Position numbers and translations under genes: made by a program. A DNA stretch of 64,000 nt, from contig CP013614.1 in the NCBI GenBank assembly GCA_001465115.1, positions 930,001 to 994,000 on the forward strand. The letters are read 5' to 3'. Positions 12,449 through 54,882 of the stretch are shown here, one piece after another; within the stretch, counting starts at the first letter, position 1; each line of letters begins with the position of its first letter. Source of the DNA: Enterococcus silesiacus (GTDB lineage: Bacteria > Bacillota > Bacilli > Lactobacillales > Enterococcaceae). The notes beneath the pieces were generated by a model, which made no database searches, was not told where the DNA came from, and saw only the letters and a list, made by a program, of their open reading frames with translations.

Positions 12449-12566
12449 TGTCTAGCTTTACAGGCTAGTCTTTCGGAAAAAAGATAAAATATGTTTGTAG
12501 TAAAAAGCACTACATTCATATTTTCCTATTTTTCTGTCAAGACTGAACGAGCCTGCTCAGCTTTTA
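12449..12566 (+). repeat. 118-bp hairpin repeat, copy A
   Basis: First of two tandem copies (period 122 bp) between lexA and the UPF0291 gene. The element is a long imperfect palindrome. The outer stem CAGGCT/AGCCTG comes first, then GTCTT/AAGAC, a long A/T stem (GAAAAA and AAAATATG against CATATTTT and TTTTTC), and an apical stem TGTAGT/ACTACA with an AAAAAGC loop. It differs from copy B at only a handful of positions. Confidence 0.9.
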
Positions 12567-12570
12567 ATGT

Positions 12571-12688
12571 TGTCTAGCTTTACAGGCTAGTCTTTCGGAA
12601 AAAAGATAAAATATGATTGTAGTAAAAAGCACTACATCCATATTTTCCTATTTTTCTGTCAAGACTGGACGAGCCTGCTCAGCTTTAA
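12571..12688 (+). repeat. 118-bp hairpin repeat, copy B
   Basis: Second tandem copy, with the same stems as copy A. Its right end (AGCTTTAAAA) is 3-5 bases from the AAGGAGG (12693-12699) of the UPF0291 gene, so it forms the 5' leader of that mRNA. Related copies lie before hslV and codY. Confidence 0.9.
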
Positions 12689-12706
12689 AAATAAGGAGGC
12701 AGAATC

Positions 12707-12949
12707 ATGTTATCATCTGAAAAAATGGATCGAATTAATGAGCTTGCGAAAAAGGCAAAGGAAAGCACGTTATCCGAGAGTGAAAAAGAAGAACAAAAAG
12801 TGCTTCGTCAAGAATATTTAGCTGCTTTCCGTGGAGGGATGCGTCATCATATCGAAGGGATGAAAGTTGTCGATCCTAAAGGAAATGATGTTACACCAGA
12901 TAAACTAAAAAAAATCCAAAAAGACAAAGGATTACACAATAGAAAATAA
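12707..12949 (+). CDS. UPF0291 (DUF896) family protein, YnzC-like
   Basis: An 80-residue basic, helical cytosolic protein. The family (B. subtilis YnzC, PF05979) has an N-terminal helical hairpin (INELAKKAKESTLSESEKEEQKVLRQEYL) and a conserved tail GMKVVDPKGNDVTPDKL. Its biochemical function is not established. The AAGGAGG eight bases upstream fixes the start. In B. subtilis it belongs to the LexA-controlled yneA-yneB-ynzC operon beside lexA and before tkt. Here that position between lexA and tkt is kept, but yneA and yneB are absent and two hairpin repeats fill the gap. Confidence 0.9.
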   Translation: MLSSEKMDRINELAKKAKESTLSESEKEEQKVLRQEYLAAFRGGMRHHIEGMKVVDPKGNDVTPDKLKKIQKDKGLHNRK

Positions 12950-13047
12950 TTTTGGTTTTTTTTACTAAAAGTAATTGCTTTCATAAAGGAAATAGGCTAA
13001 AATATAGTTAATAAAGGTAAAAAAAACCTAAATAGGAGATGATTTTT

Positions 13048-15042
13048 TTGTTCGACAACACTGATCAGTTAGGCGTCAATACAATTCGTACATTAAGTAT
13101 CGAAGCAGTACAAAAGGCAAATTCAGGACATCCTGGATTACCGATGGGTGCTGCACCGATGGCATACGCACTTTGGACAAAACACTTGAAAGTAAATCCT
13201 AAAACATCAAGAAACTGGGCAGATAGAGACCGTTTTATTCTTTCTGCAGGTCATGGCTCTGCAATGCTTTATAGTTTACTTCACTTAGCAGGCTACGGTG
13301 TATCAATGGATGATTTGAAGAACTTCCGTCAATGGGGAAGTAAAACACCTGGACATCCTGAAGTGCATCATACAGATGGTGTTGAAGCAACGACTGGTCC
13401 TTTAGGTCAAGGAATTGCGATGGCTGTTGGTATGGCAATGGCTGAAGCCCACACAGCTGCGACATATAATCGTGATAGTTTCCCTGTGATCGATCATTAT
13501 ACGTATGCACTATGTGGTGATGGTGACTTGATGGAAGGTGTCTCACAAGAAGCAAGTTCTATGGCAGGACACATGAAGTTAGGCAAATTGATTGTGTTAT
13601 ACGATTCAAATGACATCTCATTAGACGGTCCTACATCAAAAGCTTTCACTGAAAATGTTGGCGCTCGTTATGAAGCTTATGGTTGGCAACATATTTTAGT
13701 AAAAGATGGGAATGATCTAGAAGAAATTTCCAAAGCAATCGAAGCAGCTAAAGCTGAAACAGATAAACCAACATTGATCGAAGTTAAAACAGTTATTGGT
13801 TATGGAGCACCAAAAGAAGGTACATCGTCAGTTCATGGTGCACCGATTGGCGCAGAAGGAATTACTGTTGCTAAGGCTGTTTACGGTTGGGAATATCCTG
13901 ATTTCACAGTGCCCGACGAGGTTGCTGCTCGTTTCAAGGAAACAATGATTGATGAAGGCGAAAAAGCCGAAGATAAATGGAACAATATGTTTGCAAACTA
14001 TACGAAAGAGCATCCTGAGTTAGCGAAACAATTTAAACAAGCTTTTGCTGATGAACTTCCTGAAAATTGGGATAGTGAACTACCAACATATGAAGTTGGA
14101 TCAAGCGCGGCTAGCCGAGTTACAAGCAAAGAAACAATTCAAGCGATTTCTAAGACTGTACCAGGTTTCTGGGGCGGTTCTGCTGATTTGTCTGCATCAA
14201 ATAATACGATGGTTGCAGCAGAAAAAGATTTTGAGCCAGGTCAATATGATGGTCGCAACATTTGGTTTGGCGTTCGCGAATTTGCGATGGCTGCTGCCAT
14301 GAACGGAATTCAATTACATGGAGGAAGCCGTGTCTATGGCGGAACATTCTTTGTATTTACCGATTATTTACGTCCTGCATTACGTTTAGCAGCTCTTCAA
14401 CATACGCCTGTGACGTATGTCTTGACCCACGATTCTGTGGCAGTAGGAGAAGATGGTCCAACTCACGAACCTGTTGAGCAATTAGCAAGTATTCGCTGTA
14501 TGCCAGGTGTTCAAGTAATCCGTCCAGCTGATGGTAATGAAACAGTTGCTGCATGGAAGATTGCCATGACAACGAAAGACGCTCCAACTGTATTAGTTTT
14601 AAGTCGTCAAAATTTACCTGTTATCGATGGAACTCAGGAGCATGCAAATGAATTTGTACAAAAAGGTGCTTATGTTATTTCTAAACAAAAGGGTGAAAAA
14701 CCTGAAGGAATCTTGATTGCAACTGGTTCAGAAGTCAACTTAGCGATTGAAGCACAAAAAGCCTTAGCAGAACAAGGTCAAGATGTTTCCGTTGTTTCAT
14801 TACCAAGCTTTGATTTGTTTGAAAAACAAACGGCAGAATACAAAGAGTCTGTACTTCCTAAAGATGTGACTAAGCGTGTAGCAATCGAAGCAGCTTCACC
14901 ATTTGGATGGGAGCGTTACGTTGGTACGGCTGGTACAACTGTGACAATCAATCATTTTGGGGCTTCAGCTCCTGGTGATCTAGTCTTGAAAGAATTCGGC
15001 TTTACAGTTGAAAATGTAGTATCAAAATACAATAATTTGTAA
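13048..15042 (+). CDS. tkt: Transketolase
   Basis: Thiamine-diphosphate enzyme moving two-carbon units in the non-oxidative pentose phosphate pathway. The 664-residue product shows the N-terminal [22 protein letters not shown], the substrate His region SAGHGSAM, the TPP/Mg motif GDGDLMEG, and the central pyrimidine domain with [10 protein letters not shown] and [18 protein letters not shown]. The frame opens at ATG 13039, but that codon abuts the AGGAG ribosome site. TTG 13048, giving [11 protein letters not shown], matches the family N-terminus. It is followed by a strong terminator. Confidence 0.96.
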
Positions 15043-15063
15043 AGTAAACAATTTTAAATAAAA

Positions 15064-15100
15064 AAGCAGCTATTCACATTTGTGAATAGCTGCTTCTTTT
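15064..15100 (+). terminator. Intrinsic terminator after tkt
   Basis: A perfect 15-bp stem (15064-15078 with 15081-15095) with a 2-nt loop is followed by a T-rich run. Confidence 0.9.
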
Positions 15101-15526
15101 TGTCCAGTAACAAATACATGGATATAGAAAAGTTGCCATTATTATCAGCTATTACGGTAACACTTGGTTCTGCAGACCACTTAACGATAACCATAACGAC
15201 ATTTTTTTCATTTTACGCACTCCGATTAAAACATTTCGCAATCTTTTTGTAAAAGTTGTAGTGCAAACGAAATATATTGCAATCTTTTTTTGTTTATTAA
15301 AAAAAACTTAATAATTGTATAATAAAGGTATTTACATAAAAAAAACGTTCGAATAATATACAATCATGTAAACTGAATAAAACAAATATACTCAGAACAA
15401 TAAAACAAAAATTTCAGCCTGACTACACTGACTTTAAAACTTCAAGTTTCAAGAGCAAATAATTGTTTATAAAAAATTCTCCGAGTAAAATGGTGTTACG
15501 ATGTTCTATTGAGGAGGAACAAATGA
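15101..15526. other. Intergenic region before the autolysin gene
   Basis: There is no well-supported gene in these 426 bases. A 44-codon plus-strand frame at 15118-15252 lacks a ribosome site. The minus strand across about 15109-15208 reads an open peptide containing PSVTVIADNNGNFSIS, reminiscent of a bacterial Ig-like domain, but it has no start. A short sequence like GCAATCTTTTT recurs near 15238 and 15280. The remainder is A/T-rich leader, presumably including the autolysin promoter, which I could not place. Confidence 0.5.
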
Positions 15527-16381
15527 ATGGACGAGATTAAGACAAGAAGTAGCAGACATCATCAAAAAGAGCCTAAAACTAGTAATAAACGATTAGCATC
15601 TGTAATAGGAACTTCATTAGTTTTTCTTCCGATTGCAGGGAGTTTACTCCCTCTAAGTGTTCATGCAAACGAAGTTGAAGCGCAAGGAGATGTTTCACAA
15701 CAAGCATTTATTGATTCTATTGGATATTCAGCTGCGTCTGTAGCTGACGCAAATGACCTATACGCATCTGTAATGATTGCCCAGGCATTGCTAGAAAGTA
15801 GTTATGGTACATCCGGATTAGCAGCAGCGCCAAACTATAATTTATTTGGTGTAAAGGGAAGCTATAATGGACAAACAGTTTATATGCCTACCTCAGAATA
15901 TTTGAATGGACAGTGGGTTACGATGACAGAACCATTTAGAAGTTATTCGTCATATGCTGAGTCATTTCAAGATCATGCCAATGTTCTTAAAACAACTTTA
16001 GCATCAAGCGGAGACTACCATTACTCTGGTGTCTGGAAAAGTAACACATCTAGCTACATGGATGCTACAGCAGCCTTGGCTGGACGTTATGCAACGGATC
16101 CAGGTTATGCAAGTAAATTAAATTGGTTGATTGCAACTTATGGTTTAACAGCATATGATTGGGGAACCGTTGAAACCTCAGTAACTGGTGAAGCGCCAGT
16201 AGCTCAATCAGCTGTTGGGCAAAGTATTGCCACACTCACTACTCAATCTTATACTGTTGCTTCTGGCGATACTCTTTGGGGCATTGCTGAAAGATTCGGG
16301 CTATCAGTTGATCAGCTTATGGCTTCAAATGGCCTATCTGCTGAATTGATCACGGTCGGACAAGTCTTACAAGTCGCATAA
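15527..16381 (+). CDS. Secreted peptidoglycan hydrolase, GH73 glucosaminidase domain plus LysM
   Basis: Autolysin-type enzyme acting on the cell wall after secretion. The 284-residue protein has a basic N-terminus and hydrophobic signal segment (about 22-48, likely cleaved after VHANE or nearby). A GH73 glucosaminidase domain follows (about 60-205; ALLESSYGTSGLA contains the conserved catalytic Glu, NYNLFGVKGSYNG follows), then a Ser/Thr linker and one LysM (about 240-283, TYTVASGDTLWGIAERFG). It resembles the AtlA/AtlB/AtlC catalytic domains of E. faecalis but has a single LysM. ATG 15527 is 9 bases from GAGGAGG; an ATG four bases earlier opens only a five-codon frame. Exact bond specificity is uncertain. 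Confidence 0.9.
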   Translation: MDEIKTRSSRHHQKEPKTSNKRLASVIGTSLVFLPIAGSLLPLSVHANEVEAQGDVSQQAFIDSIGYSAASVADANDLYASVMIAQALLESSYGTSGLAAAPNYNLFGVKGSYNGQTVYMPTSEYLNGQWVTMTEPFRSYSSYAESFQDHANVLKTTLASSGDYHYSGVWKSNTSSYMDATAALAGRYATDPGYASKLNWLIATYGLTAYDWGTVETSVTGEAPVAQSAVGQSIATLTTQSYTVASGDTLWGIAERFGLSVDQLMASNGLSAELITVGQVLQVA

Positions 16382-16430
16382 AAAACTGCCAACAACTGTC
16401 GTTTACTGACGGTTTGTTGGCAGTTTTTTT
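16381..16430. terminator. Bidirectional terminator between the autolysin gene and ispH
   Basis: 15-bp perfect arms (16381-16395 with 16414-16428) start with A5 and end with T7. They sit between two convergent stop codons. Confidence 0.9.
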
Positions 16431-17424
16431 ATCTTTTTCCTAAACGTAATTCTTCTAAACGCCGTTGCCGATTCTTCGTCAAGTCCTTGATTCGTGGCCT
16501 AGGCAAAATTGCATCAGAGGTTGTGGTTGATTTTTTCTGATGCGTTGTAGGGTCATTAATATCAAAATGTTTTAAATAGTCGATGACTTCGCGAACAATT
16601 TGAGTAGGGGTGGAAGCTCCGGCTGTAACAGCAACCTGATCTACATTTAACAGCCATTGAGGATTGATTTGAGAAACATCAGAAATCCGATGAGCTGGGA
16701 CTCCTGCTTGTTCGATGGAAACCTGAGCTAAGCGATTGCTATTATTACTTTTCGGATCACCCACAACAATCGTCAAGTCACAGCCCTTTGCTTGCTCAAC
16801 AACAGCTTCTTGACGAACTTGTGTAGCTTTACAAATATCTTTATGGATATGTACATGGGGATATTTAGCTTTGATCAAATCCATCAAGTTGCCAACATCC
16901 CATTGACTCATCGTTGTTTGATTGGTCACAAAAATAGCCTCTGCAGTTAAAGCTAGTGCTGAAATATCCGACTGATTTGAAACTAAATGAACATGATCAG
17001 GCGATACGCCAACTGCTCCTTCAGGTTCAGGATGATTTTTCTTACCGATATAAATAATCTCATATCCTTTAGCCACTTTTTCTGCAATTAATTCATGTGT
17101 GATCATAACATCAGGGCAGGTTGCATCAATAACAGTCAAACCTTTCTGGAGAGCTAATGCTTTTACTTTTGGCGAAGTTCCGTGGGCGGTAAAAATAACA
17201 GTTCCCTGATCTATCTGTGCTAAAATATCTTCACGTTTTTCTCCATCTAATGTATGAACCCCGATACTTTCAAAAGCATCTGTCACATGTTTATTATGAA
17301 CGATCATCCCTAAGATATAGATAGGGCGAGGTAAACTTTCATCGAGTGAAGCATTTCTAGCAATAACCATCGCGTCAACAACACCATAACAATAGCCACG
17401 GGGGCTAATATTTACAATTTTCAT
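16429..17424 (-). CDS. ispH: 4-hydroxy-3-methylbut-2-enyl diphosphate reductase (IspH/LytB)
   Basis: IspH makes IPP and DMAPP from HMBPP in the last step of the MEP isoprenoid pathway, using a [4Fe-4S] cluster. The 331-residue protein has the three cluster cysteines in [14 protein letters not shown] and [11 protein letters not shown]. It also has the substrate motifs HNKHV, TAHGTSP and [12 protein letters not shown] ~45-residue charged C-terminal tail extends beyond the usual end. It stands alone, divergent from cysK and convergent with the autolysin gene. Enterococci are known for the mevalonate route, so an isolated ispH is worth checking for its real role. No other MEP gene is in this window. 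Confidence 0.88.
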
Positions 17425-17799
17425 AATTGAATTAACTCCTACTTACTAAATTTTAAAGTCCTATTTACTATACAATACTTTTATTAAGTTTGTGTTAAGG
17501 GGTATTAAACGTTGTTATAACAATGTTAATTATAGCTATATATACTTTGAGCATTTATAAAACAATCACAAAAGTGTCTCAAATTAACATTTAGTACATA
17601 GCCGATTTATTTGTATGAAATGAACAACAGTTTTCCTTTAACTTCTTTACAAACGTTATTATATCATAAGCAAGAGTCATTTTTTTATGGAAACAACAGC
17701 TGATTAAATTGCAAAATGATAGCCAGATGAGCTGATATAAGCTATTATAAACAGAAGAACGTTTTTGCTTGCACGAATATTAAGATGGAGGAATGACGA
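17425..17799. other. Divergent intergenic region between ispH and cysK
   Basis: These 375 A/T-rich bases must carry both divergent promoters. AGGAG lies 11-16 bases before the ispH start, and GGAGG precedes cysK. I could not assign a confident -35/-10 pair in either direction. I see no T-box specifier, S-box or other riboswitch core, nor a terminator-like hairpin. Confidence 0.5.
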
Positions 17800-18729: not shown

Positions 18730-18791
18730 CTAAGGCGCAACTTTTGACCTGCTTTTTAGGAGTTTAATAAATCCATAAGTCTGAACCGTTG

Positions 18792-18821
18792 AAAGCTAAG
18801 CGTAACTTGCTTAGCTTTTTT
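18792..18821 (+). terminator. Intrinsic terminator after cysK
   Basis: A 10-bp perfect stem (18792-18801 with 18809-18818), a 7-nt loop and a T6 run. Confidence 0.85.
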
Positions 18822-18935
18822 GCCGGTGAGAAAAGCACCAGCTTATCTAATCACACAAAAAGTATGTAATAAATTAGAGATCCTCATAAATTAGAGATAA
18901 ACAAGAGATTTCCCATACTATTTATGCAATTATTC

Positions 18936-18964
18936 TTGTCAAGATAGTTTAGAAATAGTATCAT
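18936..18964 (+). promoter_or_regulatory. perR promoter
   Basis: TTGTCA (18936-18941), a 17-nt spacer, then TATCAT (18959-18964), 29 bases before the perR start. I see no clear PerR box (TTATAAT-N-ATTATAA) over it. Confidence 0.7.
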
Positions 18965-18993
18965 TTAAGAAAGAAGACTGGGAGGGGAACCAA

Positions 18994-19431: not shown

Positions 19432-19444
19432 AATGAGTGAGAAG

Positions 19445-19825: not shown

Positions 19826-19839
19826 ACTTTTAATTTCAC

Positions 19840-19872: not shown

Positions 19873-19958
19873 GTTGTAAAAACAGTGTTTATAATTAGGT
19901 ATATGCATTTTAAAATGAAAAATACGTTAAAAATAGAAAAGTTTGTGAAAAAATAAGT

Positions 19959-22698: not shown

Positions 22699-25600
22699 AT
22701 GAAAGATGATAAGAAAAAAAAGAAAAGCACTACCAATTCAAAAAAACAGAATAAGTATCGTGCATTATCATTAGTGTTGACAAGTAGTTTAGTTATTGCC
22801 CCGTTGACGATTCCATTATCATTTTATTTACCAGGAGGAATTACTGCTTCGGCTGCAATTTTAGATGCAGAAATTCTCTCAAATATCACTACTTCAAATG
22901 ATAGCGGTACATCGGCGGGAACTCGATGGTCTGCTGATGGAACATCAAAAAATGTGAACTTTTCTATAACTGGAAGTGAGTTAGTTGGGGGATCTGTTAT
23001 CACGAGCGGAACAAAGCAAGCTGTTTTATCAATTCCAACTGAATTAAACGGACGCGTTTCTCCAAACGGAGTAGCACAAATCAATACAAATGTGACATTA
23101 ACGGTCGGCGACTTAACGTTTTTGACTGGAACATTGAATGCCGTTAATAATTTATCGAATTTGTTAACTAATATTGTTGATGGTTCACTAGGGAGTTTAA
23201 CGGGTGTTACCTTGAATTTAACAGCAGTTAATCAAAAAATAGACGCTCTAAATAATCTTGAAAATTTTGGTAGCGCACAGTTTAGTTCGAATGCTGTTCT
23301 TTCTCCTGATGGTAAATATATTCAAGCGGGTATTGATGATGGATTAGGTTTAGTTTTAGCACAGAATGTATCATCACTTTTACAAGATTTAAAAGCAGCA
23401 GTTGATGCTTTACAAGCGTCTGGTAGTGGAATTACTAGTAACGTAGTTGCAGCAGCTATCAACGCCGCGTTACTTCCTGTCAAAGGGACTGTAGATACAG
23501 CGATTAACCTCGCCTTACCACTAGTAGGAATTGGAGGGGCTGGGGTCAATCAATTAGCTGATGCTTCAGTATTGGGTGCTACAACGATCAATATCCCAAC
23601 AACTGTTGTAAGTCCTACAAGCTTAACGCAAAATTTAGACGCTAGATTTGTTGGCACTGTTATAAAAGCAGATGCCATTGATATTAGCTTGATCAATACA
23701 GCTAATGGAATATCTGATATCTATTACGCTGGTAATGCAGTAGTTGTAGCACCACCAGTCGTAACGAATACAACAGGTAGCTCTACAACCGGATACACTG
23801 TATTTGGTACAGCGACAGCAGGGGATACGATTACGATTAAAAATGCAAGTGGAACAACAATTGCATCCGGACCGGCAACTGGCGGGAATTTTGAAATCAG
23901 TATTCCACAAGGTTCCGCAACAGCTAATGAGGCATTGACAGCGACAGCATCCAACGGCGGTAATGATAGTACACCAACCTCCTTTACGACACCAGCGGAT
24001 GCAGTGATAGTAGCACCACCAGTCGTAACAAGTACAACAGGAACTTCTGCAACAGGTTATACTGTGACAGGTACAGCGACAGCCGGAAATACAGTTATAA
24101 TTAAAAATGCGGGTGGGACAACAATCGCATCAGGACCGGCAACCGGCGGAAACTTCAGTATTACTATTCCACAAGGAGCCGCAACTCAAAACGAACCATT
24201 AACAGCAACTGCTTCTGATGGTACGAATAACAGTACACCAACTTCATTTACGACACCAGCGGATGCAGTGATAGTAGCACCGCCAGTCGTAACAAGTACA
24301 ACAGGAACTTCTGCAACAGGTTATATAGTAACAGGTACAGCCACAACTGGAAATACTGTGGATATTCGTAATGCAAGTGGCACCACAATCGGAACAAGTA
24401 CAGTAGATGGAACTGGAAACTTCAGTATTACTATTCCGCAAGGTCAAGCAACAGCAAGCGAGTCTTTAAATGCTATTGCAAAATCCGGATCAGATGAAAG
24501 TACGGCTACACCATTTACAACACCAGCAGATCCAATTGTTGTAGCACCGCCAGTTGTAACAAACACAACAGGAACTTCTGCAACTGGACACACGGTCACA
24601 GGAACAGCGACAGCGGGTAACTCAGTGGATATTCGTAATGTAGGTGGCACTACAATAGCAACTGGTATTGCTGATGGTAGCGGTAATTTTACTATTGCGA
24701 TTCCCCAAGGATTGACAACTGCTAGTGAGTCTTTGACAGCAGTTGCAAAAATAGGAGTGAACGAAAGTGCAGCTACTCCATTTACAACACCAGCAGATCC
24801 AGTAAACGTCAATGCACCAACGGTTGATAATGTATCAGGCACATCGACAACAGGATACACAGTGACCGGGACAGCGACAGCTGGAAACACTGTAGAAGTA
24901 AAAAATACAGGAGGCACAGTGATTGGAACGGCTTTTGTTGATCCGAGTGGCAACTATACAGTTACAATCCCAACTGGATCTGCCACACCAAACGAACAAC
25001 TATCTGCAGTAGCTAAAGATGCGGATGGCAACCAGAGTCCAGCTACGTCATTTACAACACCAGCAGATCCAGTGGCGGTTAGTGCACCAACCGTTGATAA
25101 TGTAACAGGAACAGGCGCAACTGGCTATACTGTGACCGGGACAGCGACAGCTGGAAACACTGTAGAAGTAAAAAATACAGGTGGAACAGTGATCGGAACA
25201 GCGATTGCGGACCCAAGTGGCAACTATACAGTTACGATTCCAGTCGGTTTAGCAACGCCAAGTCAACAATTATCAGCAGTAGCTAAAGATGCCGATGGAA
25301 ATCAAAGCCCAGCAACATCATTCAATACACCAGCAGATCCAGTAGTAGTCACAGCGCCAACAGTAAATAATGTGACTGGTACGTCAGCGACTGGCTATAC
25401 AGTAACGGGTACAGCAACAGCTGGAAACACTGTAGAAGTAAAAAATACAGGTGGAACAGTGATTGGAACAGCGATTGCAGATCCAAGTGGTAACTTTACA
25501 GTTGTGATTCCAGTTGGTTTAGCAACACCAAACCAACAATTATCGGCGGTAGCTAAAGATGCAGACGGTAACCAAAGTCCAGCAACACCATTTACTACAC

Positions 25601-28600
25601 CAGCTGACCCAGTGGTAGTTCAAGCGCCAACTGTCGATAGCGTAACAGGTAATTCATCAACAGGTTATACAGTAACAGGAACAGCGCCAGTAGGAAGTAC
25701 AGTAGAAATCAAAAATACAGGTGGCACAGTAATTGGAACAGGAGCGGCCGATGGCAGCGGAAATTACACAGTGACGATTCCAGCCGGTTCAGCAACGCCG
25801 AGTGAACAATTAACTGCAACAGCTAAAGATACAGATGGGAACACTAGTCCTGGAACAACCTTCACAACACCAGCAGATCCAGTAGTGGTCACAGCACCAA
25901 CAGTAAATAATGTGACTGGTACGTCAGCGACTGGCTATACAGTAACGGGTACAGCAACTGCTGGTAATACAGTAGAAATCAAAAATACAGGTGGCACAAT
26001 TATTGGAGCTGCAGTAGCAGACCCAAGTGGCAACTATTCAGTGATAATTCCAATCGGAGCTGCAACACCAAGTCAACAATTATCCGCAGTAGCCAAAGAC
26101 GCAGATGGTAACCAAAGTCCGACAACACCATTTACTACACCGGCAGATCCGGTAGTGGTTCAAGCGCCAACTGTTGATAGTGTAACAGGTAATTCATCAA
26201 CAGGTTATACAGTAACAGGAACAGCGCCAGCAGGAAGTACAGTAGAAATCAAAAATACAGGCGGGACAGTGATTGGAACAGGAGCAGCCGATGGCAGCGG
26301 AAATTACACCGTTACGATTCCAGCTGGTTCAGCAACGCCGAGTGAACAATTAACTGCAACAGCCAAAGACGCGGACGGCAATACAAGTCCTGGAACATCA
26401 TTCACAACACCAGCGGACCCAGTAGTGGTTCAAGCGCCAACTGTGGAAACTGTAACAGGTACATCAACGACAGGCTATACAGTAAATGGAACGGCAACAG
26501 CAGGTAACAGAGTGGATATTAAAAACACAGGCGGAACAATTATTGGCAGTGCTATGGCAGATGGCAGTGGTAATTACACAATCACAATTCCAATAGGATT
26601 AGCACAACCGCTTCAACAACTTTCTGCTATAGCTGTGGATGGCGATAATAATCAAAGTTCGGCAACACCATTTATAACACCAGCTGACCCAGTGGTTGTT
26701 CAAGCACCAACAGTTGATACTGTAACCGGAAGTTCAACAACGGGTTATACAGTAACAGGAACAGCACCGGCAGGAAGTACAGTAGAAATTAAAAACACAG
26801 GTGGTACAGTAATTGGAACAGGTGTAGCAGATGGTAGCGGAAATTACACAATTACGATTCCAGCCGGTTCAGCAACACCAAGTGAACAATTAACTGCAAC
26901 AGCTAAAGATGCAGATGGCAATACAAGTCCTGGAACAACGTTTACAACACCAGCGGATCCAGTGGCGGTAAGTGCTCCAACAGTTGATACTGTGGCAGGA
27001 ACAGGAGCAACTGGCTATACAGTAACAGGAACAGCAACTACCGGCAATACAGTAGAAATTAAAAATACAGGTGGAACAATTATTGGAACTACGATTGCGG
27101 ATTCAAGCGGCAACTATACAGTTACGATTCCAGTTGGTTTAGCAACACCAAACCAACAATTATCCGCAGTAGCCAAAGACGCAGATGGTAACCAAAGTCC
27201 AGCAACACCATTTACAACACCAGCTGACCCAGTGGTAGTCACAGCCCCAACAGTTGATACTGTAACCGGGACAGGAGCAACGGGTTATACAGTGACTGGA
27301 ACAGCAACTGCTGGAAACACAGTGGATATTAAAAATACAGGTGGCACAGTGATCGGAACAGGGACTGCTGATCCAAGTGGTAACTATACAGTTGTGATTC
27401 CAACTGGAGTAGCTACTCCAAATCAACAATTAACGGCAGTGGCGAAAGACATAGACGGTAATCAAAGTCCAGCGACACCATTCACAACGCCAGCAGATCC
27501 AGTAGTCGTTCAGGCTCCAACAGTTGATACTGTAACAGGTACATCAACGACAGGCTATACAGTAACTGGAACGGCAACATCAGGTAACAGAGTGGATATT
27601 AAAAACACAGGTGGAACAATCCTTGGAAGTGCGATTGCAGATGGCAGTGGTAATTACACAATTACAATTCCAGTAGGCTTAGCGCAACCCCTTCAACAAC
27701 TTTCAGCTGTAGCTGTAGATGGAGATAATAATCAAAGCCCAGCAACACCATTTACAACACCGGCTGATCCAGTAGTGGTTCAAGCGCCAACAGTTGATAA
27801 TGTAACAGGTAATTCTTCAACAGGTTATACAGTAACAGGAACAGCACCAGCAGGAAGTACTGTAGAAATTAAAAACACAGGTGGGGAAATAATTGGAACA
27901 GGTGTAGCAGATGGTAGCGGTAATTACACGGTTACGATTCCAGCAGGATCTGCAACACCAAGTGAACAATTAACTGCAACAGCCAAGGACGCAGATGGCA
28001 ATACAAGTCCTGGAACAGTCTTTACAACACCAGCTGATCCAGTATCAATTCAAGCGCCAGTTGTTACTAGCGTAACAGGAAATTCAGGTACTGGTTACAC
28101 AGTAGTTGGTACTGCGGTTGCCGGGGATACCTTGTCAATCAAAAAATTAAACGGAACGATGATTGGTTCAGCTCAAGTAGATGGTAGCGGCAATTACTCA
28201 GTAGTCCTTCCATCAGGTTCAGCTAGCCCGCTAGAACAATTGAGAGCAATAGATTCTGATAGTGCAGGTAATCAAAGTCCAGCAACACCGTTTACTACAC
28301 CAGCGGATTCTGTAGTAGTAGCAAAACCAATCATAACTAGTGTAGTAGGCGATTCTCAAACTGGATACACAGTCAAAGGGACAGCAACTGCCAGTGACTC
28401 TATATCACTTAGAAGCCTTTCTGGTGACGAAGTAGGAGCCGGAGAAGTTGATGGTGCAGGTAAGTTCTCAATTGAATTAGATTCTCAAGATGTAGACCCG
28501 TTACAACAATTAAATGCAGTCGCAATTGATGATGCACTTAACACTAGTTTACCAACACTATTTACAATCCCAGCTGATCCATCTTCAACTATTGAAGCTC

Positions 28601-29385
28601 CAACGATCAGCAGTGTTACAGGAACGTCGAAATCTGGCTATATCGTAATCGGTAAAGCGACAGCAGGCAACAAAGTCAAAATTCGCAATGTTGCTGGAAG
28701 AGTCATCGGATTAGGTCTAGCTGATTCGAATGGAACATTTATATTCAGAGCCCCACTTGCACTAGATGGTGAATTTGCCATTGCTTTACCAAAAGGCTCA
28801 GCAACTGAAAATGAAGCGTTGACAGCGACAGCTGAAAATAATATTGGCGAGGTCAGCACGGCAACTCCATTCATGACACCAGCCGATCCAACAGTCAAAG
28901 TTGCAACACCAATTATTAGCAGTGTAAGTGGCAATTCAATGACAGGCTATACAATCAAAGGAATTGCAACACCTGGAAATGATGTAGAGCTTCAAAATAC
29001 TGCTGGAGAAATTCTAGGTGCGGCAACGGCAAGTGAGACTGGCGGCTTTGTTATCGAAATCCCAATTGGTTTTGCGGAGCCAAAAGAACTAGTTTCAGCA
29101 ATCGCCAAAGATAGTGATGGGAATCAAAGTGAACCAGCGAACTTTAAGCTTCCTGCTGATCCAGGCGACAGCGATGGCAATGGAGCTGGCAACGGTAATG
29201 GAACTGGTAATGTTGGCAACTTAGGTAATAATGGAAGCTCTGGCTTGAAAAACCTAAGTGCTACACAAAAAAATCTTCCAAACAATGGTGAAATCATCAG
29301 TAATTGGGGATTGGTAGGTGCGTTACTTCTAGGTGTCCTAGGATTCTTCACCTTTAAACGTACAAATAAAAAAGAAGAAGAATAA
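22699..29385 (+). CDS. Giant LPxTG-type surface adhesin with 20 Ig-like repeats
   Basis: 2,228 residues. The signal peptide (about 1-52) has a basic start and a hydrophobic core with no YSIRK motif. A unique N-terminal domain (about 53-346) is rich in Asn, Leu and Val and resembles the adhesive domains of Listeria/Enterococcus surface proteins. Twenty tandem ~90-residue bacterial Ig-like domains (about 348-2154) each read roughly APTVDNVTGTS.TGYTVTGTA and end TTPADP. A Gly/Asn linker precedes the sorting signal LPNNG (2193-2197), a hydrophobic helix and an RTNKKEEE tail. GAGGAGG precedes the ATG. The repeats form an extended stalk presenting the head, presumably for attachment or biofilm. LPNNG departs from LPxTG. 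The ligand is unknown. Confidence 0.92.
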   Translation: MKDDKKKKKSTTNSKKQNKYRALSLVLTSSLVIAPLTIPLSFYLPGGITASAAILDAEILSNITTSNDSGTSAGTRWSADGTSKNVNFSITGSELVGGSVITSGTKQAVLSIPTELNGRVSPNGVAQINTNVTLTVGDLTFLTGTLNAVNNLSNLLTNIVDGSLGSLTGVTLNLTAVNQKIDALNNLENFGSAQFSSNAVLSPDGKYIQAGIDDGLGLVLAQNVSSLLQDLKAAVDALQASGSGITSNVVAAAINAALLPVKGTVDTAINLALPLVGIGGAGVNQLADASVLGATTINIPTTVVSPTSLTQNLDARFVGTVIKADAIDISLINTANGISDIYYAGNAVVVAPPVVTNTTGSSTTGYTVFGTATAGDTITIKNASGTTIASGPATGGNFEISIPQGSATANEALTATASNGGNDSTPTSFTTPADAVIVAPPVVTSTTGTSATGYTVTGTATAGNTVIIKNAGGTTIASGPATGGNFSITIPQGAATQNEPLTATASDGTNNSTPTSFTTPADAVIVAPPVVTSTTGTSATGYIVTGTATTGNTVDIRNASGTTIGTSTVDGTGNFSITIPQGQATASESLNAIAKSGSDESTATPFTTPADPIVVAPPVVTNTTGTSATGHTVTGTATAGNSVDIRNVGGTTIATGIADGSGNFTIAIPQGLTTASESLTAVAKIGVNESAATPFTTPADPVNVNAPTVDNVSGTSTTGYTVTGTATAGNTVEVKNTGGTVIGTAFVDPSGNYTVTIPTGSATPNEQLSAVAKDADGNQSPATSFTTPADPVAVSAPTVDNVTGTGATGYTVTGTATAGNTVEVKNTGGTVIGTAIADPSGNYTVTIPVGLATPSQQLSAVAKDADGNQSPATSFNTPADPVVVTAPTVNNVTGTSATGYTVTGTATAGNTVEVKNTGGTVIGTAIADPSGNFTVVIPVGLATPNQQLSAVAKDADGNQSPATPFTTPADPVVVQAPTVDSVTGNSSTGYTVTGTAPVGSTVEIKNTGGTVIGTGAADGSGNYTVTIPAGSATPSEQLTATAKDTDGNTSPGTTFTTPADPVVVTAPTVNNVTGTSATGYTVTGTATAGNTVEIKNTGGTIIGAAVADPSGNYSVIIPIGAATPSQQLSAVAKDADGNQSPTTPFTTPADPVVVQAPTVDSVTGNSSTGYTVTGTAPAGSTVEIKNTGGTVIGTGAADGSGNYTVTIPAGSATPSEQLTATAKDADGNTSPGTSFTTPADPVVVQAPTVETVTGTSTTGYTVNGTATAGNRVDIKNTGGTIIGSAMADGSGNYTITIPIGLAQPLQQLSAIAVDGDNNQSSATPFITPADPVVVQAPTVDTVTGSSTTGYTVTGTAPAGSTVEIKNTGGTVIGTGVADGSGNYTITIPAGSATPSEQLTATAKDADGNTSPGTTFTTPADPVAVSAPTVDTVAGTGATGYTVTGTATTGNTVEIKNTGGTIIGTTIADSSGNYTVTIPVGLATPNQQLSAVAKDADGNQSPATPFTTPADPVVVTAPTVDTVTGTGATGYTVTGTATAGNTVDIKNTGGTVIGTGTADPSGNYTVVIPTGVATPNQQLTAVAKDIDGNQSPATPFTTPADPVVVQAPTVDTVTGTSTTGYTVTGTATSGNRVDIKNTGGTILGSAIADGSGNYTITIPVGLAQPLQQLSAVAVDGDNNQSPATPFTTPADPVVVQAPTVDNVTGNSSTGYTVTGTAPAGSTVEIKNTGGEIIGTGVADGSGNYTVTIPAGSATPSEQLTATAKDADGNTSPGTVFTTPADPVSIQAPVVTSVTGNSGTGYTVVGTAVAGDTLSIKKLNGTMIGSAQVDGSGNYSVVLPSGSASPLEQLRAIDSDSAGNQSPATPFTTPADSVVVAKPIITSVVGDSQTGYTVKGTATASDSISLRSLSGDEVGAGEVDGAGKFSIELDSQDVDPLQQLNAVAIDDALNTSLPTLFTIPADPSSTIEAPTISSVTGTSKSGYIVIGKATAGNKVKIRNVAGRVIGLGLADSNGTFIFRAPLALDGEFAIALPKGSATENEALTATAENNIGEVSTATPFMTPADPTVKVATPIISSVSGNSMTGYTIKGIATPGNDVELQNTAGEILGAATASETGGFVIEIPIGFAEPKELVSAIAKDSDGNQSEPANFKLPADPGDSDGNGAGNGNGTGNVGNLGNNGSSGLKNLSATQKNLPNNGEIISNWGLVGALLLGVLGFFTFKRTNKKEEE
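23740..29157 (+). repeat. Tandem ~270-bp coding repeats (20 Ig-like units)
   Basis: Units repeat every ~270 bp. Units 5-16 are most alike and fall into three sub-types: ATAGNTVE...DPSGN, APAGSTVE...DGSGN, and AT(A/S)GNRVD. They appear in mixed order, with pairs 11-12 and 15-16 nearly the same at DNA level. Units 1-4 and 17-20 are more divergent. Unit 19 contains an extra ~10 residues. This points to recent block duplications in the centre of the array. Confidence 0.9.
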
Positions 29386-47497: not shown

Positions 47498-47500
47498 TCC

Positions 47501-49591
<2,091 letters not shown>

Positions 49592-49601
49592 TTATTCTTG
49601 A

Positions 49602-49631
49602 ATTATAGGGCCAAAGGCCACATCATTACAA
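49602..49631 (-). promoter_or_regulatory. parE promoter
   Basis: On the minus strand TTGTAA (49631-49626), an 18-nt spacer and TATAAT (49607-49602). The spacer contains GGCC-AAA-GGCC, a small palindrome. Confidence 0.65.
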
Positions 49632-49641
49632 TAATACTCTA

Positions 49642-49697
49642 AAAGCTCTCAAAAAAAAAGAGCTTTCCTAAACGGCCACTCTTTCTTAAGATTATTT
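49642..49697 (-). terminator. Terminator of the CoA-binding protein gene
   Basis: On the minus strand AAAGAG...CTCTTT with a T9 run forms a terminator (about 49690 to 49651). The same T-run and GCTCT (49642-49649 with 49659-49666) can form an alternative hairpin. Confidence 0.6.
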
Positions 49698-49701
49698 ACA
49701 T

Positions 49702-50127
49702 CTATTTCGGCATTTCAGCTAATTCAATTTTAATGCAGCGATTCATTATAATAGCACTTCTTCCTGCTTTTTTCAACATTTCAGCAGCTTCTTCACTTTC
49801 CAGACCTAATTGGGCCCAAAAGACTTTTGCATCTGTCTCAATGAACTCTTTCGCAACGTCTGGTAAAAATTCGCTGCGGCGAAAGATGTCAACGATATCG
49901 ATTTGCCCAGGAACATCTTGCAATTTTTCGTAAACTTTTGCACCAAGAATTTCTTGTCCTGCAAGTATTGGGTTTACCGGAATGATCTCATAGCCATATT
50001 CTTGCAGTAATTTTGCTATTTTATAACTTGTTCGTTCCTCTTTTGCACTTAATCCAACAATTGCAATCCGCTTAGCTTCTTGTAGGTATTGGATTATTTG
50101 TTCTTGTGATGGGTTTTCGACAGACAT
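49702..50127 (-). CDS. CoA-binding domain protein (YccU-like)
   Basis: A 141-residue protein made of one Rossmann-type CoA-binding domain: RIAIVGLSAKEERTSYKIAKLLQEYGYEIIPVNP, then VDIFRRSEFLPDVAKEFI and FWAQLGLESEEAAEMLKKAG, ending with NRCIKIE. The family (YccU/YneT) is related to the N-terminus of succinyl-CoA synthetase alpha; its role is unknown. The second ATG (50127) is eight bases from AAAGGA and is preferred over 50136. It is a single gene between plsY (divergent) and parE. Confidence 0.85.
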   Translation of the reverse strand: MSVENPSQEQIIQYLQEAKRIAIVGLSAKEERTSYKIAKLLQEYGYEIIPVNPILAGQEILGAKVYEKLQDVPGQIDIVDIFRRSEFLPDVAKEFIETDAKVFWAQLGLESEEAAEMLKKAGRSAIIMNRCIKIELAEMPK

Positions 50128-50182
50128 TTTAGTCATCCTTTCTCATTTCTCTCAATTTCATTATACAACGAATATTTAATTA

Positions 50183-50211
50183 TTGTTAGCTGTTTCTATT
50201 CATGATAAAAT
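50183..50211 (+). promoter_or_regulatory. plsY promoter
   Basis: TTGTTA (50183-50188), a 17-nt spacer, TAAAAT (50206-50211), 32 bases before the plsY ATG. Confidence 0.65.
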
Positions 50212-50243
50212 AAATGCTAGTTTGAACAGAAAGAGGTTGCTCA

Positions 50244-50876
50244 ATGAAATTTTTCGTGCTATTGATTATAGCTTATCTACTCGGTTCTATTCCTTCTGGT
50301 GTTTGGGTGGGAAAACTCTTTTTTAAAAAGGACCTTCGTCAATTTGGCAGTGGCAATACAGGAACGACAAATACCTTTAGAGTGTTAGGTAAAAAAGCTG
50401 GCATAGCGGTTTTGCTAATGGATATTTTAAAAGGAACATTAGCCACTAGTTTACCACTGCTGTTTTCTTTAAACGTTAATCCTTTAGTGTTTGGGGTTGC
50501 GGCAGTTCTGGGTCATACGTTTCCAGTTTTTGCAAATTTTAAAGGAGGAAAAGCTGTTGCAACAAGCGCAGGGATGCTTTTGGCTTACAATCCAGCATTT
50601 TTTGTCTATTCTGCTTTAATTTTTATTATTATGTTATATATTACCAGCATGGTGAGTTTAACTAGTATGATCAGCGCTGTATTGATTACTCTTTCAACAG
50701 TGATTCTCCCATTTGCGATTCCGGCCATATTGCCTCGGTTTGACTGGTTATTGACATTAATTGCACTAGCTTTAACGATTTTTATTTTCATCCGTCACAA
50801 GGATAACATAAAGCGAATCAAAGACGGCACTGAAAGTCGTGTCCCTTTTGGATTAGGCGTAAAAAAAGAAAACTAA
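50244..50876 (+). CDS. plsY: Glycerol-3-phosphate acyltransferase PlsY
   Basis: A membrane enzyme transferring the acyl group of acyl-phosphate to glycerol-3-phosphate, the first step of phospholipid synthesis. The 210-residue protein has five hydrophobic helices and the family motifs [44 protein letters not shown] and [17 protein letters not shown] precedes the ATG. It sits upstream-divergent of parE, as in many Lactobacillales. It shares a terminator with the convergent epimerase gene. Confidence 0.95.
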
Positions 50877-50919
50877 AAACTAGGACATGAAGTTTAGGAT
50901 ACTTCATGTCCTAGTTTTT
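50875..50919. terminator. Bidirectional terminator between plsY and the epimerase gene
   Basis: 19-bp perfect arms (50875-50893 with 50901-50919), a 7-nt loop, A5 and T5 ends. It covers the last base of both genes' stop codons. Confidence 0.9.
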
Positions 50920-51794
50920 CATTTAGCAGTAAGTGTGTATTGTGTCTTAAAGACATCTGATGCAGGTAATTTGTTGATTCCTTTTTTGTCAACAAGTTTT
51001 CCAGTTGCATTTATTTCGTCAGCTATACCGCACCATGGTTCAATACAAACGAATGGCGCTTCTTGTGGATAAGGAGACCAAATTCCCACATAAGGCATAT
51101 CTGTGTAACTTAAACTAATGCTATGCGGGCCTTCATCTGATTCGATCGTAAAAGTGTTAGCGCCCTTGGTTTCAAAAATAATCGCATCATCTTTGAATAG
51201 TTCTCTGCGAATATCAAGACTAGTATTCGTTTGTCCCAATGTTTTATGTTCAAAATCTGCAAAAGGTCCTACTAAAGGAATTTGAGTGCGAGATTTCTTA
51301 GGAGAAAAACTTAAATAGTAATCATCAAATGTTAAGCCTTGTTCTAAAGGAACATTGAACGCAGGGTGACCACCTATTGAAAAATACATATCGGCATTTC
51401 CTGTATTTTCAACTTGGTAATTAACCACTAAGTTATCGGCTTCTAGTGTATAAGAAAGAATCAATTCAAAATCAAAAGGATAGACTTCCTTCGTTTTTTT
51501 ACTACTTCTTAGCGATAATGAAACAAGTTCAGCTCCATGCTCGATAACTTCAAAAAGGCTATCTCTAGCAAATCCGTGCTGACTCATAGGATATGTTTTA
51601 TTGTCATAAGTATATCGATCGTCTTTTAAACGCCCAACTACTGGAAATAAGACCGGAGCATGACGCCCCCAAAAAGTTGGATCACCCTGCCAAATATACT
51701 CGATATTATTTTTCTTTGACTTTAAACTGATTAATTCTGCCCCATCTTCTGCAATGGTTGCGATTAAAAATTCATTTTCAATTTGTACAGTCAT
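50919..51794 (-). CDS. Aldose 1-epimerase family protein (LacX-like)
   Basis: A 291-residue cytosolic beta-sandwich protein of the galactose-mutarotase superfamily. It shows APVLFPVVGRLKD and MSQHGFARDSLFEV with the catalytic-type His. It also shows GGHPAFNVPL and IEPWCGIADE with the likely general-base Glu. It is closer to the LacX/YeaD-like branch than to classical GalM, so the sugar is uncertain. The second ATG (51794) is 8 bases from AGGAGG and is favoured over 51800. It lies just after codY and may be co-transcribed with it. Confidence 0.83.
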   Translation of the reverse strand: MTVQIENEFLIATIAEDGAELISLKSKKNNIEYIWQGDPTFWGRHAPVLFPVVGRLKDDRYTYDNKTYPMSQHGFARDSLFEVIEHGAELVSLSLRSSKKTKEVYPFDFELILSYTLEADNLVVNYQVENTGNADMYFSIGGHPAFNVPLEQGLTFDDYYLSFSPKKSRTQIPLVGPFADFEHKTLGQTNTSLDIRRELFKDDAIIFETKGANTFTIESDEGPHSISLSYTDMPYVGIWSPYPQEAPFVCIEPWCGIADEINATGKLVDKKGINKLPASDVFKTQYTLTAK

Positions 51795-51806
51795 GTCCAT
51801 TGCCTC

Positions 51807-52598
51807 CTATTTGTTATCTTTTTCCAGTTCTTTGATAAACTGTTTGTTTAATACTTTCAGATAAGTCCCTTTCATTCCTAGAGATCTTGATTCGATGATT
51901 CCTGCAGACTCCAATTTTCGTAAGGCGTTGACAATCACTGAACGTGTGATTCCGATTTCATCAGCAATACTAGACGCTGTCAGTCTACCCTCTTCACCAT
52001 CTAAAGCTTTGAAAATCGCTTGGACAGCTTTTAATTCACTGTAAGATAACGTATTGATTGCCATTTGTACAGCAGTTGCGCTACGGACATTGGCTTCGAT
52101 GTTTCTTGATTGTTGGTAAAGGATCTGCATCCCAACAACTGTTGCACTATATTCAGCTAAGACTAGATCTTCATCATCAAATGATTGTTCTACTCTAGCT
52201 AAAATAATTGTTCCTAAACGTTCACCCGCACCAAACATGGGTACAATCGTTGTTAGCCCAAAAGGATATTTTTCACGAAGTTCAACCGGAAATGCGGTTA
52301 AGTCACTTGTGATTGAAATGTTCGCTTCTGTTTTGATTAAGTTGTCAGCAGCATCTGTATAGCTTTGCGGAAACCGTTTTTCTTCAAACATATGCTTCAC
52401 TCGTGCATTATTCACATCTAGTTTTTCGTTGTACCCTAACAAAACGCCTTCGTTACTTATAATGTAGGCATTACTTTCCAGCACATCACCTAAAATTACC
52501 GCCATCTTGTCATAAGGCAAATCGGCTTTTTGATCAAAAGTGTTTTTCTGTTGTAAAAGCTTGTTGATCTGACGGGTTTTCTCTAATAAAGTAGTCAT
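51807..52598 (-). CDS. codY: GTP/branched-chain amino acid-responsive regulator CodY
   Basis: A global repressor that binds DNA when isoleucine/leucine/valine (and in many species GTP) are plentiful. The 263-residue protein has the N-terminal GAF ligand domain (MTTLLEKTRQIN start, about 1-155). The C-terminal winged helix contains ASSIADEIGITRSVIVNALRKLESAG. The open frame continues upstream through the hairpin repeat, but AGGAGG before ATG 52598 and the family N-terminus fix the start. It follows hslU, the familiar xerC-hslVU-codY order, here with a repeat between. Confidence 0.96.
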   Translation of the reverse strand: MTTLLEKTRQINKLLQQKNTFDQKADLPYDKMAVILGDVLESNAYIISNEGVLLGYNEKLDVNNARVKHMFEEKRFPQSYTDAADNLIKTEANISITSDLTAFPVELREKYPFGLTTIVPMFGAGERLGTIILARVEQSFDDEDLVLAEYSATVVGMQILYQQSRNIEANVRSATAVQMAINTLSYSELKAVQAIFKALDGEEGRLTASSIADEIGITRSVIVNALRKLESAGIIESRSLGMKGTYLKVLNKQFIKELEKDNK

Positions 52599-52613
52599 TT
52601 TTACTCCTCCTAA

Positions 52614-52734
52614 TTTTAAAAGCGAACTGGGCTTGGCCATTTCTCGACTGAAAAATAGGAAATTATGACTGAGGTGTTTTTTGCCTCAGTCATAATTTAT
52701 CTTTTTTCCGAGAGACTAGCCCATATAGCTAGCT
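52614..52734 (-). repeat. Hairpin repeat, copy D (codY leader)
   Basis: Same family as copies A-C, reading on the minus strand. The outer stem is GGGCT/AGCCC (A-T changed to G-C against copy B), then TCTC/GAGA, and an apical stem GACTGAGG/CCTCAGTC. The core CGGAAAAAAGATAAA and CCTATTTTTC are kept. It ends 2 bases before the AGGAGG of codY (52611-52606). Confidence 0.88.
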
Positions 52735-52737
52735 AAA

Positions 52738-52765
52738 TTTAAAAGCTGAAAGAGCTCGTTCAGCC
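52738..52765 (-). repeat. Truncated relic of the same hairpin repeat
   Basis: The minus strand reads GGCTGAACGAGCTC...CAGCTTTTAAA, matching the 3' end of copies A-C. It directly precedes copy D and begins ~16 bases after the hslU stop, as if a former tandem pair lost most of its first unit. Confidence 0.7.
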
Positions 52766-52781
52766 ATAAATCCAGACAATC

Positions 52782-54185
52782 CTACAGAATGTAACGGCTT
52801 AGATCTTCATTTTGAACAATACTGTTCAATTTTTCATTTACATAAGCTTCTGTTATTGTAATCTCACCCATTTGCATATCTGGCGCTTCGAATAATAGGT
52901 CTTCCAATAAGCGCTCCAGAATCGTATGCAGACGGCGAGCTCCGATATTATCGGTGTCACGATTTACGTTAAAAGCAATATTAGCGATTCGCTCAATAGC
53001 TTCCTTTGTAAAGATCACTGTGACATTTTCAGTACCAATTAAGGCAATATATTGTTTAATCAAAGCGTTATTCGGCTCTGTTAAGATTCGGACGAAGTCC
53101 TCAGCACTAAGGTCATCTAATTCAACTCGAATTGGGAAACGACCTTGTAATTCAGGGATTAAATCACTTGGCTTAGACAAATGAAATGCGCCAGAAGCAA
53201 TAAATAAAATGTGGTCTGTCTGGATCGCACCGTATTTTGTGTTGACTTGTGAACCTTCAACAATGGGTAAAATATCGCGTTGCACGCCTTCTCGGGATAC
53301 TTCACCTGAGTTTTGTTGGCTTTTTGAAGTGATTTTATCAAATTCATCAATAAAAATGATGCCGCTACTTTCAGCTAAACGAATCGCTTCACTATGAATA
53401 TCGGCTTCTTTGACGATTTTAGCAGATTCCTCTTTTACTAATAATTCTTGTGCTTCTTTCACAGTGACAGTGCGTTCCACTTTTTTCTTAGGTGATAAAG
53501 CTCCTAAGGTTTCGTTTAGGTCGATCCCCATTTGTTCCATCCCGTTATTCATTGCAGGCATCGTTTTTTTAGGTTCCTCGATCTCGATAGTTACTTCACG
53601 ATTGTTCAGTAATCCTTTTTCTAGTTGTTCCAAAATCGTTTTGCGATTCACTTTGATCTCTTCGGTTACTTCTTCTTGAGATTCTTGGGGTTGTTGCGCA
53701 CTATTGAACATTTGCATCATTTGTTCAAACTGATTATTTGATGTTTGCTTTTGCTCTTTTTTGATTCCAGGTACTAGAACTTTGACTAAACGATTATTCG
53801 CTTTTTTTAGGGCCTGAGAGTACACTCTGCTATATTGTTGTTTTTCAACGATTTGAATCGCATTTTCAACTAGATCACGAACCATTGATTCGACATCTCG
53901 CCCAACGTAGCCAACTTCTGTAAATTTAGTCGCTTCTACTTTGATAAAAGGTGCATTGACAATTTTCGCCAAGCGTCTAGCAATTTCTGTTTTTCCGACA
54001 CCTGTAGGTCCGATCATCAACATATTTTTAGGTGTTACATCTTGCTGCATTTTCTCTTCAAGTTGTAAACGGCGGTATCTATTTCTTAAAGCAACTGCAA
54101 CGGATTTTTTAGCTGTTTCTTGTCCAATGATATATTCATCTAGTTCTGTTACGATTTCTCTTGGTGTTTTATTTAATTCGTTCAT
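52782..54185 (-). CDS. hslU: ATP-dependent protease ATPase subunit HslU (ClpY)
   Basis: An AAA+ unfoldase that feeds proteins to the HslV peptidase. The 467-residue protein has Walker [10 protein letters not shown] (59-67), the pore motif GYVGRDV, the Walker B region FIDEFDKI, a variable I-domain rich in Gln/Glu in the middle, and the sensor-2 region [15 protein letters not shown]. The C-terminus DLSRYIL is the usual HslV-docking tail. It starts 15 bases after hslV and is translated with it. Confidence 0.96.
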
Positions 54186-54200
54186 GGTCGTTGTCCCCCA

Positions 54201-54749
54201 TTATATTTCTTCTACAATGATATTGTGATTTGTAAACACGCAAATATCTGCTGCGATATTCAGTGCGTTTTTAGCGATTTCTTTGGCAGACATTTCTTTA
54301 TCGCCGTAGTGTTTCATAGCACGAGCTGCAGATAGTGCAAAGTTACCACCAGATCCGATTGCTAAGATACCATCATCTGGGGTAATGACCTCACCTGTAC
54401 CAGAAACCAGCAGCATCTCTTTCTCATTCATCACGATCAACATGGCTTCTAATTTTTGCATTGATTGTTGCGTACGCCATTCTTGTGCTAATTCCACTGC
54501 TGCTCTAGTTAAATTACCATTATATTCATTTAGTTTACCTTCAAATTTTTCTTCTAATGTAAAAGCATCTGCAACACTTCCAGCAAAACCGACAACTACT
54601 TCATCGTTATAGATTCTACGAACTTTTTTTGCAGTTCCTTTCATGACAACTGATTCGCCCATTGTTACTTGACCATCACCGGCCATTGCAAATTTTCCGT
54701 CTTTTTCAACAGCACAAATCGTTGTTGAATGAAATTGTGATTCAACCAT
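54201..54749 (-). CDS. hslV: ATP-dependent protease peptidase subunit HslV (ClpQ/CodW)
   Basis: The proteasome-like peptidase ring of HslUV. The 182-residue protein has [26 protein letters not shown] at the N-terminus, GSVADAFTL, and VSGTGEVI...[17 protein letters not shown]. Family enzymes use an N-terminal Thr (or Ser in B. subtilis CodW). Here eight residues, MVESQFHS, precede the conserved TT pair and position 2 is Val, so the nucleophile would need processing or be Ser/Thr further in. AGGAGG fixes the ATG. Its leader is hairpin repeat copy C. Confidence 0.94.
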
Positions 54750-54764
54750 TATAGTTCCTCCTAA

Positions 54765-54882
54765 TTTAAAAGCGTAGCAGGCTCGTTCAGCCTCGACAGA
54801 AAAATAGGGAAATATGAGGTGGCGCTTTTTACCACAATCATATTTTATCTTTTTTTCGGGCGATTAGCCTGCGAAGCTAGTC
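54765..54882 (-). repeat. Hairpin repeat, copy C (hslV leader)
   Basis: A minus-strand element of ~118 bp between xerC and hslV. It shares GCAGGCT/AGCCTGC, GAAAAAAAGATAAAATATGATTG and CCTATTTTTCTGTC blocks with copies A and B. In the apical stem GTAG/CTAC has become GTGG/CCAC, a compensated change. It ends 2 bases before the AGGAGG of hslV. Confidence 0.9.

Follow-up and report, generated by a model that had tools for sequence, protein, structure and literature searches.

Hairpin elements precede ribosome-binding sites in the window

Four near-complete copies of a hairpin element lie within a stretch of 64,000 nucleotides (nt) of Enterococcus silesiacus (assembly GCA_001465115.1, contig CP013614.1, positions 930,001 to 994,000; hereafter the window). 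They stand 5' of three genes: a ynzC-like gene, hslV, and codY. At each gene, the copy closest to the Shine-Dalgarno (SD) sequence reads with the gene and ends just 5' of AGGAGG, as described in the original prediction, an annotation made from the letters of the window alone. The four copies located there can be aligned with one another, and the accompanying relic is also present. Gene names within the window (ynzC-like, xerC-like, hslV, hslU, and codY) are presumptive, being those of that annotation or names that we take to apply. Model matches below refer to R1, the covariance model that we derived from 26 copies.

12449..12566, + strand: hairpin element, distal member of a tandem pair 5' of the ynzC-like gene (model match 12451-12564, 133 bits)
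12571..12688, + strand: hairpin element, SD-proximal member of the tandem pair (model match 12573-12686, 131.9 bits)
12694..12699, + strand: AGGAGG of the ynzC-like gene (open reading frame (ORF) 12707-12949; from sequence and ORF)
54765..54882, - strand: hairpin element between the xerC-like gene and hslV (model match 54769-54881, 113 bits)
54757..54762, - strand: AGGAGG of hslV (ORF 54201-54749; from sequence and ORF)
52614..52734, - strand: hairpin element between hslU and codY (model match 52619-52733, 114.7 bits)
~52735..52765, - strand: relic, the right end of an older copy at codY, with the newer copy on its SD side (from sequence and cross-species comparison)
52606..52611, - strand: AGGAGG of codY (ORF 51807-52598; from sequence, with a native GGAGG at the empty site in Enterococcus sp. 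5H)

The proximal and distal copies at the ynzC-like gene are 97% identical. The element 5' of codY contains an in-frame ATG (region 52599-52640, - strand). A mechanical call of the codY ORF therefore gives 51807-52640, which adds 14 codons to the ORF preceded by the SD. Automatic start calls may therefore be wrong at such genes.

The element is abundant and organized in arrays

The host genome is a single contig of 3.93 Mb. BLAST with one copy returned 77 matches, and a search with R1 returned at least 150. A local search of flanking loci gave 275 rows, from which 27 copies were picked by eye and added to the 150; apart from repeats, the remaining rows were one partial match and hits to the same copies on the opposite strand. 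This gives 94 arrays with a total of 177 copies, a lower bound.

The element comprises a hairpin of ~114 nt and a short AT-rich tail, with GCTTTTAAATTA as its right end. Arrays hold up to six copies, separated by spacers of mostly 5-9 nt. Because these spacers often resemble the tail of the preceding copy, the repeating unit is approximately TCTAGC...GCTTTTAAATTA. Its short length (114 nt), lack of coding sequence, high copy number (177 or more), and imperfect palindrome, supported by covarying stems, are all traits of miniature inverted-repeat transposable elements.

In arrays outside the window (e.g., G000:C1:863538-863760 and 3716694-3716900), hairpin copies alternate with those of another repeat, module B (TGCTTTGAAACACA..GTTGAAAAGTACAAGG..GGAACGTTGTTACC). 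This module, too, can abut an SD. The left end deviates in some hairpin copies (L047 ~1480-1505, L072, L097, and L101), where it resembles CATCAATTCCTAAGAGCTAAAGCTC. These deviant ends suggest that modules may be exchanged between elements.

Placement is oriented and fixed relative to the SD

The arrangement first described for three genes is found at those three and extends well beyond them. In 69 of the 94 arrays, an SD followed by an ORF of 60 codons or more lies no more than 16 nt from the right end and in the same direction. The same test, read outwards from the left end, gave 0 of 94. Examined across the genome, orientation and position are not random: relative to the SD-linked gene, 69 arrays are sense and 0 are antisense.

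In 65 of those 69 arrays, the SD begins 6-8 nt past the final base of the model match. Because a distance of at most 16 nt was the criterion by which the 69 were chosen, the informative features are how narrow the gap is and its persistence where the free leader is long. Of 28 arrays whose free leader measures 200 nt or longer, 26 still show the 6-8 nt gap (using crude ORF calls). Thus, lack of space does not explain it.

Strong SDs are enriched behind the elements. Of 91 arrays scanned, 69 are followed by an SD and ORF at a distance of up to 60 nt, with AGGAGG in 59 of these and GGAGG in 2 more. Crude ORF scans give AGGAGG backgrounds of 122/682 genes in G007 (a genome that matches E. crotali) and 8/49 window genes (16-18%), with the caveat that the leading A behind elements may partly come from the element. 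Overall, GGAGG occurs behind 61/69 elements, versus 194/682 G007 genes and 15/49 window genes.

Similar placement is seen in related genomes. Across 800 contiguous kb of G007, 23 copies form 17 arrays, of which 13 are at an SD by eye, one of them without a clear ORF (from a complete match listing of 30 rows, after removal of 7 opposite-strand rows). When 20 model matches, hand-picked from among the top-ranked ones in 14 other genomes of the genus, were read by eye, 13 were directly followed by an SD and seven by a further unit or module. SD-abutting copies are present in G006 (Enterococcus sp. 5H) and G014 too.

Among the remaining 25 arrays of the host genome, at least two reach an SD via module B (...GGAACGTTGTTACC), and array 1039973 has an SD without a clear ORF. 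Ten end in GCTTTTC, a subtype that comprises eleven arrays in all (by eye). In three arrays of G000 (1986650, 2064057, and 3567324), a convergent ORF has a copy at its 3' end.

Empty sites already carry the SD

Filled and empty versions of the same site can be compared between species. In Enterococcus sp. 5H, only 17 nt separate the hslU stop from the codY start, with a native GGAGG and without an element. The codY site is also empty in G014, G016, G011, G004, G021, E. phoeniculicola, and E. lactis. By eye, the hslV site is empty in G006, G014, G016, G011, G004, and G021, and filled in some other species of the genus. The site of aroC, identified by a protein family scan, is empty in G007 and filled in the host genome directly 5' of GGAGG. 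Species with empty codY and hslV sites carry a native SD. Taken together, the sites at the three genes show that the SD is native and the element a later arrival.

Copies have also decayed at some sites. At codY, the right end of the old copy is kept in the host genome, and a fuller version of that copy occurs in three other species. Shortened or degraded copies are found at the ynzC-like gene in E. ureasiticus, E. plantarum, E. caccae, and E. ureilyticus, and at codY in E. moraviensis, E. termitis, and E. quebecensis.

The original prediction had offered, as one of two explanations, an insertion preference for hairpins near ribosome-binding sites. Insertion preference is well supported by the 69:0 orientation, the excess of AGGAGG, and the empty sites with a native SD. 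The few empty sites read show no comparable hairpin, so the target seems to be the SD itself.

Stems covary in a manner unlike that of a conserved RNA

The paired stem changes noted earlier among the window copies (e.g., AGGCT/AGCCT to GGGCT/AGCCC) are visible in the copy alignment. A MAFFT alignment of 26 copies, folded with RNAalifold, has 32 predicted pairs, of which 16 show two-sided changes. Across 150 copies, in an alignment fitted to the model, there are 899 two-sided cells versus a shuffled mean of 320 (slid controls, 48-161). The internal loops (GATA vs CCTA, and around TCGG/GTC) are nearly invariant in the 26 copies. RNA folding of three stretches with window copies and of one outside copy gave z-scores of -3.3 to -5.8.

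The main rival to a mobile element is a cis-acting leader RNA, the other explanation first proposed: a hairpin kept by selection beside the SD, which alters translation or mRNA stability, for example by RNase cleavage and a protective hairpin in operons. In its favor are the constant orientation and distance to the SD, the strongly covarying stems with their conserved internal loops, and the stable predicted RNA folds. It is also favored by two-sided changes at shared sites and by shared occupancy: among the 12 host sites that could be mapped onto the G007 stretch, 10 have element sequence in host and G007 alike (by eye). Where the element is present, the SD is also predicted to be less accessible (mean 0.31 with the element vs 0.46 without, 65/94 arrays; higher with the element in 19), which would make a damping effect possible. 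The idea that the hairpin opens the SD is rejected by this prediction.

Several observations speak against such a leader. On the transcribed strand, G-U pairs are not in excess over A-C mismatches (114 vs 161 cells in 150 copies, or 105 vs 112 without the two worst pairs, which may not form). This is unlike tRNA acceptor stems, where 14 tRNAs gave nine G-U and 0 A-C, with a register choice that favors G-U. One-sided changes that break pairs dominate recent copies and also occur between site-matched copies. Among copies ~95% identical, 60% of changed pairs are one-sided and broken and 7% are two-sided and kept; at 60% identity, 74% of changed pairs are two-sided and kept. The balance of G-U and A-C, the one-sided recent changes, and the lower SD accessibility speak against constraint at the level of the transcript. 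Degraded or internally deleted copies at the ynzC-like gene and codY in several species also count against a leader under selection.

A shared regulatory role is not apparent either. Thirty downstream proteins (from 70 arrays) were scanned, and the 26 with a family match span metabolism, transport, replication, and translation; no common function is evident among the 30. At the tandem pair of the ynzC-like gene (12300-12760), no terminator or promoter signal exceeds that of shuffled sequence, and this region has no terminator-like site. We consider this explanation unlikely on balance, although some effect on expression would be compatible with the structural data taken together. The structural data fit a hairpin that would be needed in spreading copies, possibly as single-stranded DNA, and relaxed later; a single-stranded DNA form is suggested because the stem changes are not RNA-like.

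Paired changes might instead come from replication, through template switching (quasipalindrome correction), or from recombination among copies, rather than from selection on structure. The symmetry of G-U and A-C is in keeping with this, as is array 1039973, where inner arms are replaced in pairs and outer arms are kept (by eye). However, the internal loops stay mismatched and nearly invariant where correction would tend to pair them, and recent copies carry uncorrected one-sided changes, which together make this origin improbable.

An ordinary miniature transposable element that inserts at random, with purifying selection sparing only a short neutral gap before the SD, is already disfavored and seems very doubtful: operon gaps are indeed tiny, as between hslU and codY in Enterococcus sp. 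5H, and elements are tolerated there, but this predicts neither the 69:0 orientation, nor the constant spacing with a long leader, nor the enrichment of AGGAGG.

A probable mobile hairpin that may home to the ribosome-binding site

We favor, as the probable reading, a non-autonomous mobile hairpin whose insertion would be oriented and directed to the SD by machinery acting in trans. The element would have multiplied in core members of the genus, the group that holds E. caccae, E. moraviensis, and their relatives. Insertion would be aimed at the 5' edge of a strong SD, roughly (T)TA|GGAGG, in an orientation that puts the right end, GCTTTTAAATTA, against the SD. A new copy could insert between an old one and the SD. 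Insertions would be tolerated even inside operons because the SD and its spacing to the start codon stay intact, and they would probably have only mild effects on downstream expression.

More tentatively, the integration machinery may recognize the ribosome-binding site itself. In that case, the hairpin would home to GGAGG in one orientation, the gene would stay translatable, and copies would pile up on the SD side. Already in the favored reading, a presumed trans-acting enzyme would recognize the hairpin, perhaps in single-stranded DNA form, together with a target resembling an SD.

Several results weigh against a mobile hairpin of this kind. The host genome has 0 matches to Y1_Tnp (PF01797) and 0 to RVT_1 (PF00078), families found in 5/14 and 3/14 control genomes, respectively. 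Neither an HUH Y1 transposase nor a reverse transcriptase is therefore retained as the mobilizer. A scan of G000 (338 kb) and G007 (800 kb) found no left and right ends on either side of an ORF. The search for an autonomous copy from orphan ends yielded one candidate pair, 163 nt apart and too short for a gene.

Between the left and right flanks of 65 arrays, target-site duplication does not exceed that of permutations; in three copies starting with GCTAGC, TTAG is common to both flanks (by eye). The polarity that constant growth on the SD side would give, measured by model score along arrays, is not significant (31/50 arrays, p 0.12). We therefore do not adopt such growth as a general rule. 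A divergent subfamily with TCTAGCTGCACAAATC... confounds model scores along arrays.

The sharing of 10 of 12 sites is more retention than purely neutral insertion needs. Several of those ten sites have different arms in the two genomes (by eye). Site-matched copies of two species also show two-sided changes that keep pairs, three at array 1039973 and four to five at tsf. With one genome compared per species, neither excision nor new insertion was seen within a species.

If insertion is targeted, the enzyme would read one of the most conserved translation signals in Bacteria. Such targeting would also represent a safe-harbor strategy that spares both neighboring genes in an operon. If selection is responsible instead, ~70 host genes, many of them housekeeping genes, would share an unrecognized leader.

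Relationship to known hairpin repeats

Small dispersed hairpins are common in bacteria; we know of none with SD-fixed placement, a single orientation, and a near-constant gap. A literature search by title and abstract opening, which covered few subscription papers, found no description of an SD-abutting repeat.

ERIC and NEMIS (Correia) elements are imperfect palindromes of ~100-130 nt that are co-transcribed with their neighbors and insert at TA in either orientation. The element described here is similar in size and type of palindrome and differs in its fixed orientation and SD spacing. BOX of Streptococcus pneumoniae is a modular, tandem, intergenic hairpin repeat, and resembles our element in these respects by description. 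To our knowledge, SD-abutting placement has not been reported for BOX.

EFAR, which is probably the same as Efa-1, is modular, and composites of the hairpin with module B exist here. E. faecalis belongs to the same species group, and the targets of EFAR are other stem-loops rather than SD sites. Like our element, Efa-1/EFAR is an intergenic, stem-loop-forming, repeated enterococcal element. Efa-1 of E. faecalis is listed as intergenic, 163 nt long, present in 65 copies, and formed by a pair of adjacent stem-loops (PMC2267715). The element here, a single long hairpin of 114 nt, differs from that listing in unit length and fold.

Among known systems, REPINs may work most alike. They share with the present element a hairpin, a non-autonomous and dispersed nature, and tandem clusters. 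REPINs are tied to a RAYT (PMC3116915). Here, by contrast, no Y1 gene was found in the host genome, and placement is non-random.

SD placement appears to be derived within the genus

R1 matches occur in all 22 of the 22 genomes of the genus examined and, under stricter filters, in 49/105 of the family. Shared 16-mers of hslU tie 13 of the 22 to named species, among them E. crotali, E. ureasiticus, E. moraviensis, and E. caccae, and none to E. faecalis. Copy number varies within the genus: the host, E. crotali, and E. caccae are rich in copies, and G014, with 3 matches, is poor. Basal genomes of the genus and members of other genera give weaker matches, which are often tandem nonetheless. When 30 loci from these genomes were read by eye, 22 ended in GCTTTTC and only one had GGAGG within 16 nt. 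This related GCTTTTC-ended subfamily (L122-L151, L283-L305), from basal Enterococcus and other genera, lies mostly away from SD sites. Because these relatives mostly end in GCTTTTC and lie elsewhere, SD placement seems to have arisen within the genus, as a derived feature of a single subfamily. Plasmid and phage records gave no blastn match to one copy.

Within the window, there were no Rfam matches at gathering score. Its longest ORF (22699-29385) encodes 2228 amino acids.
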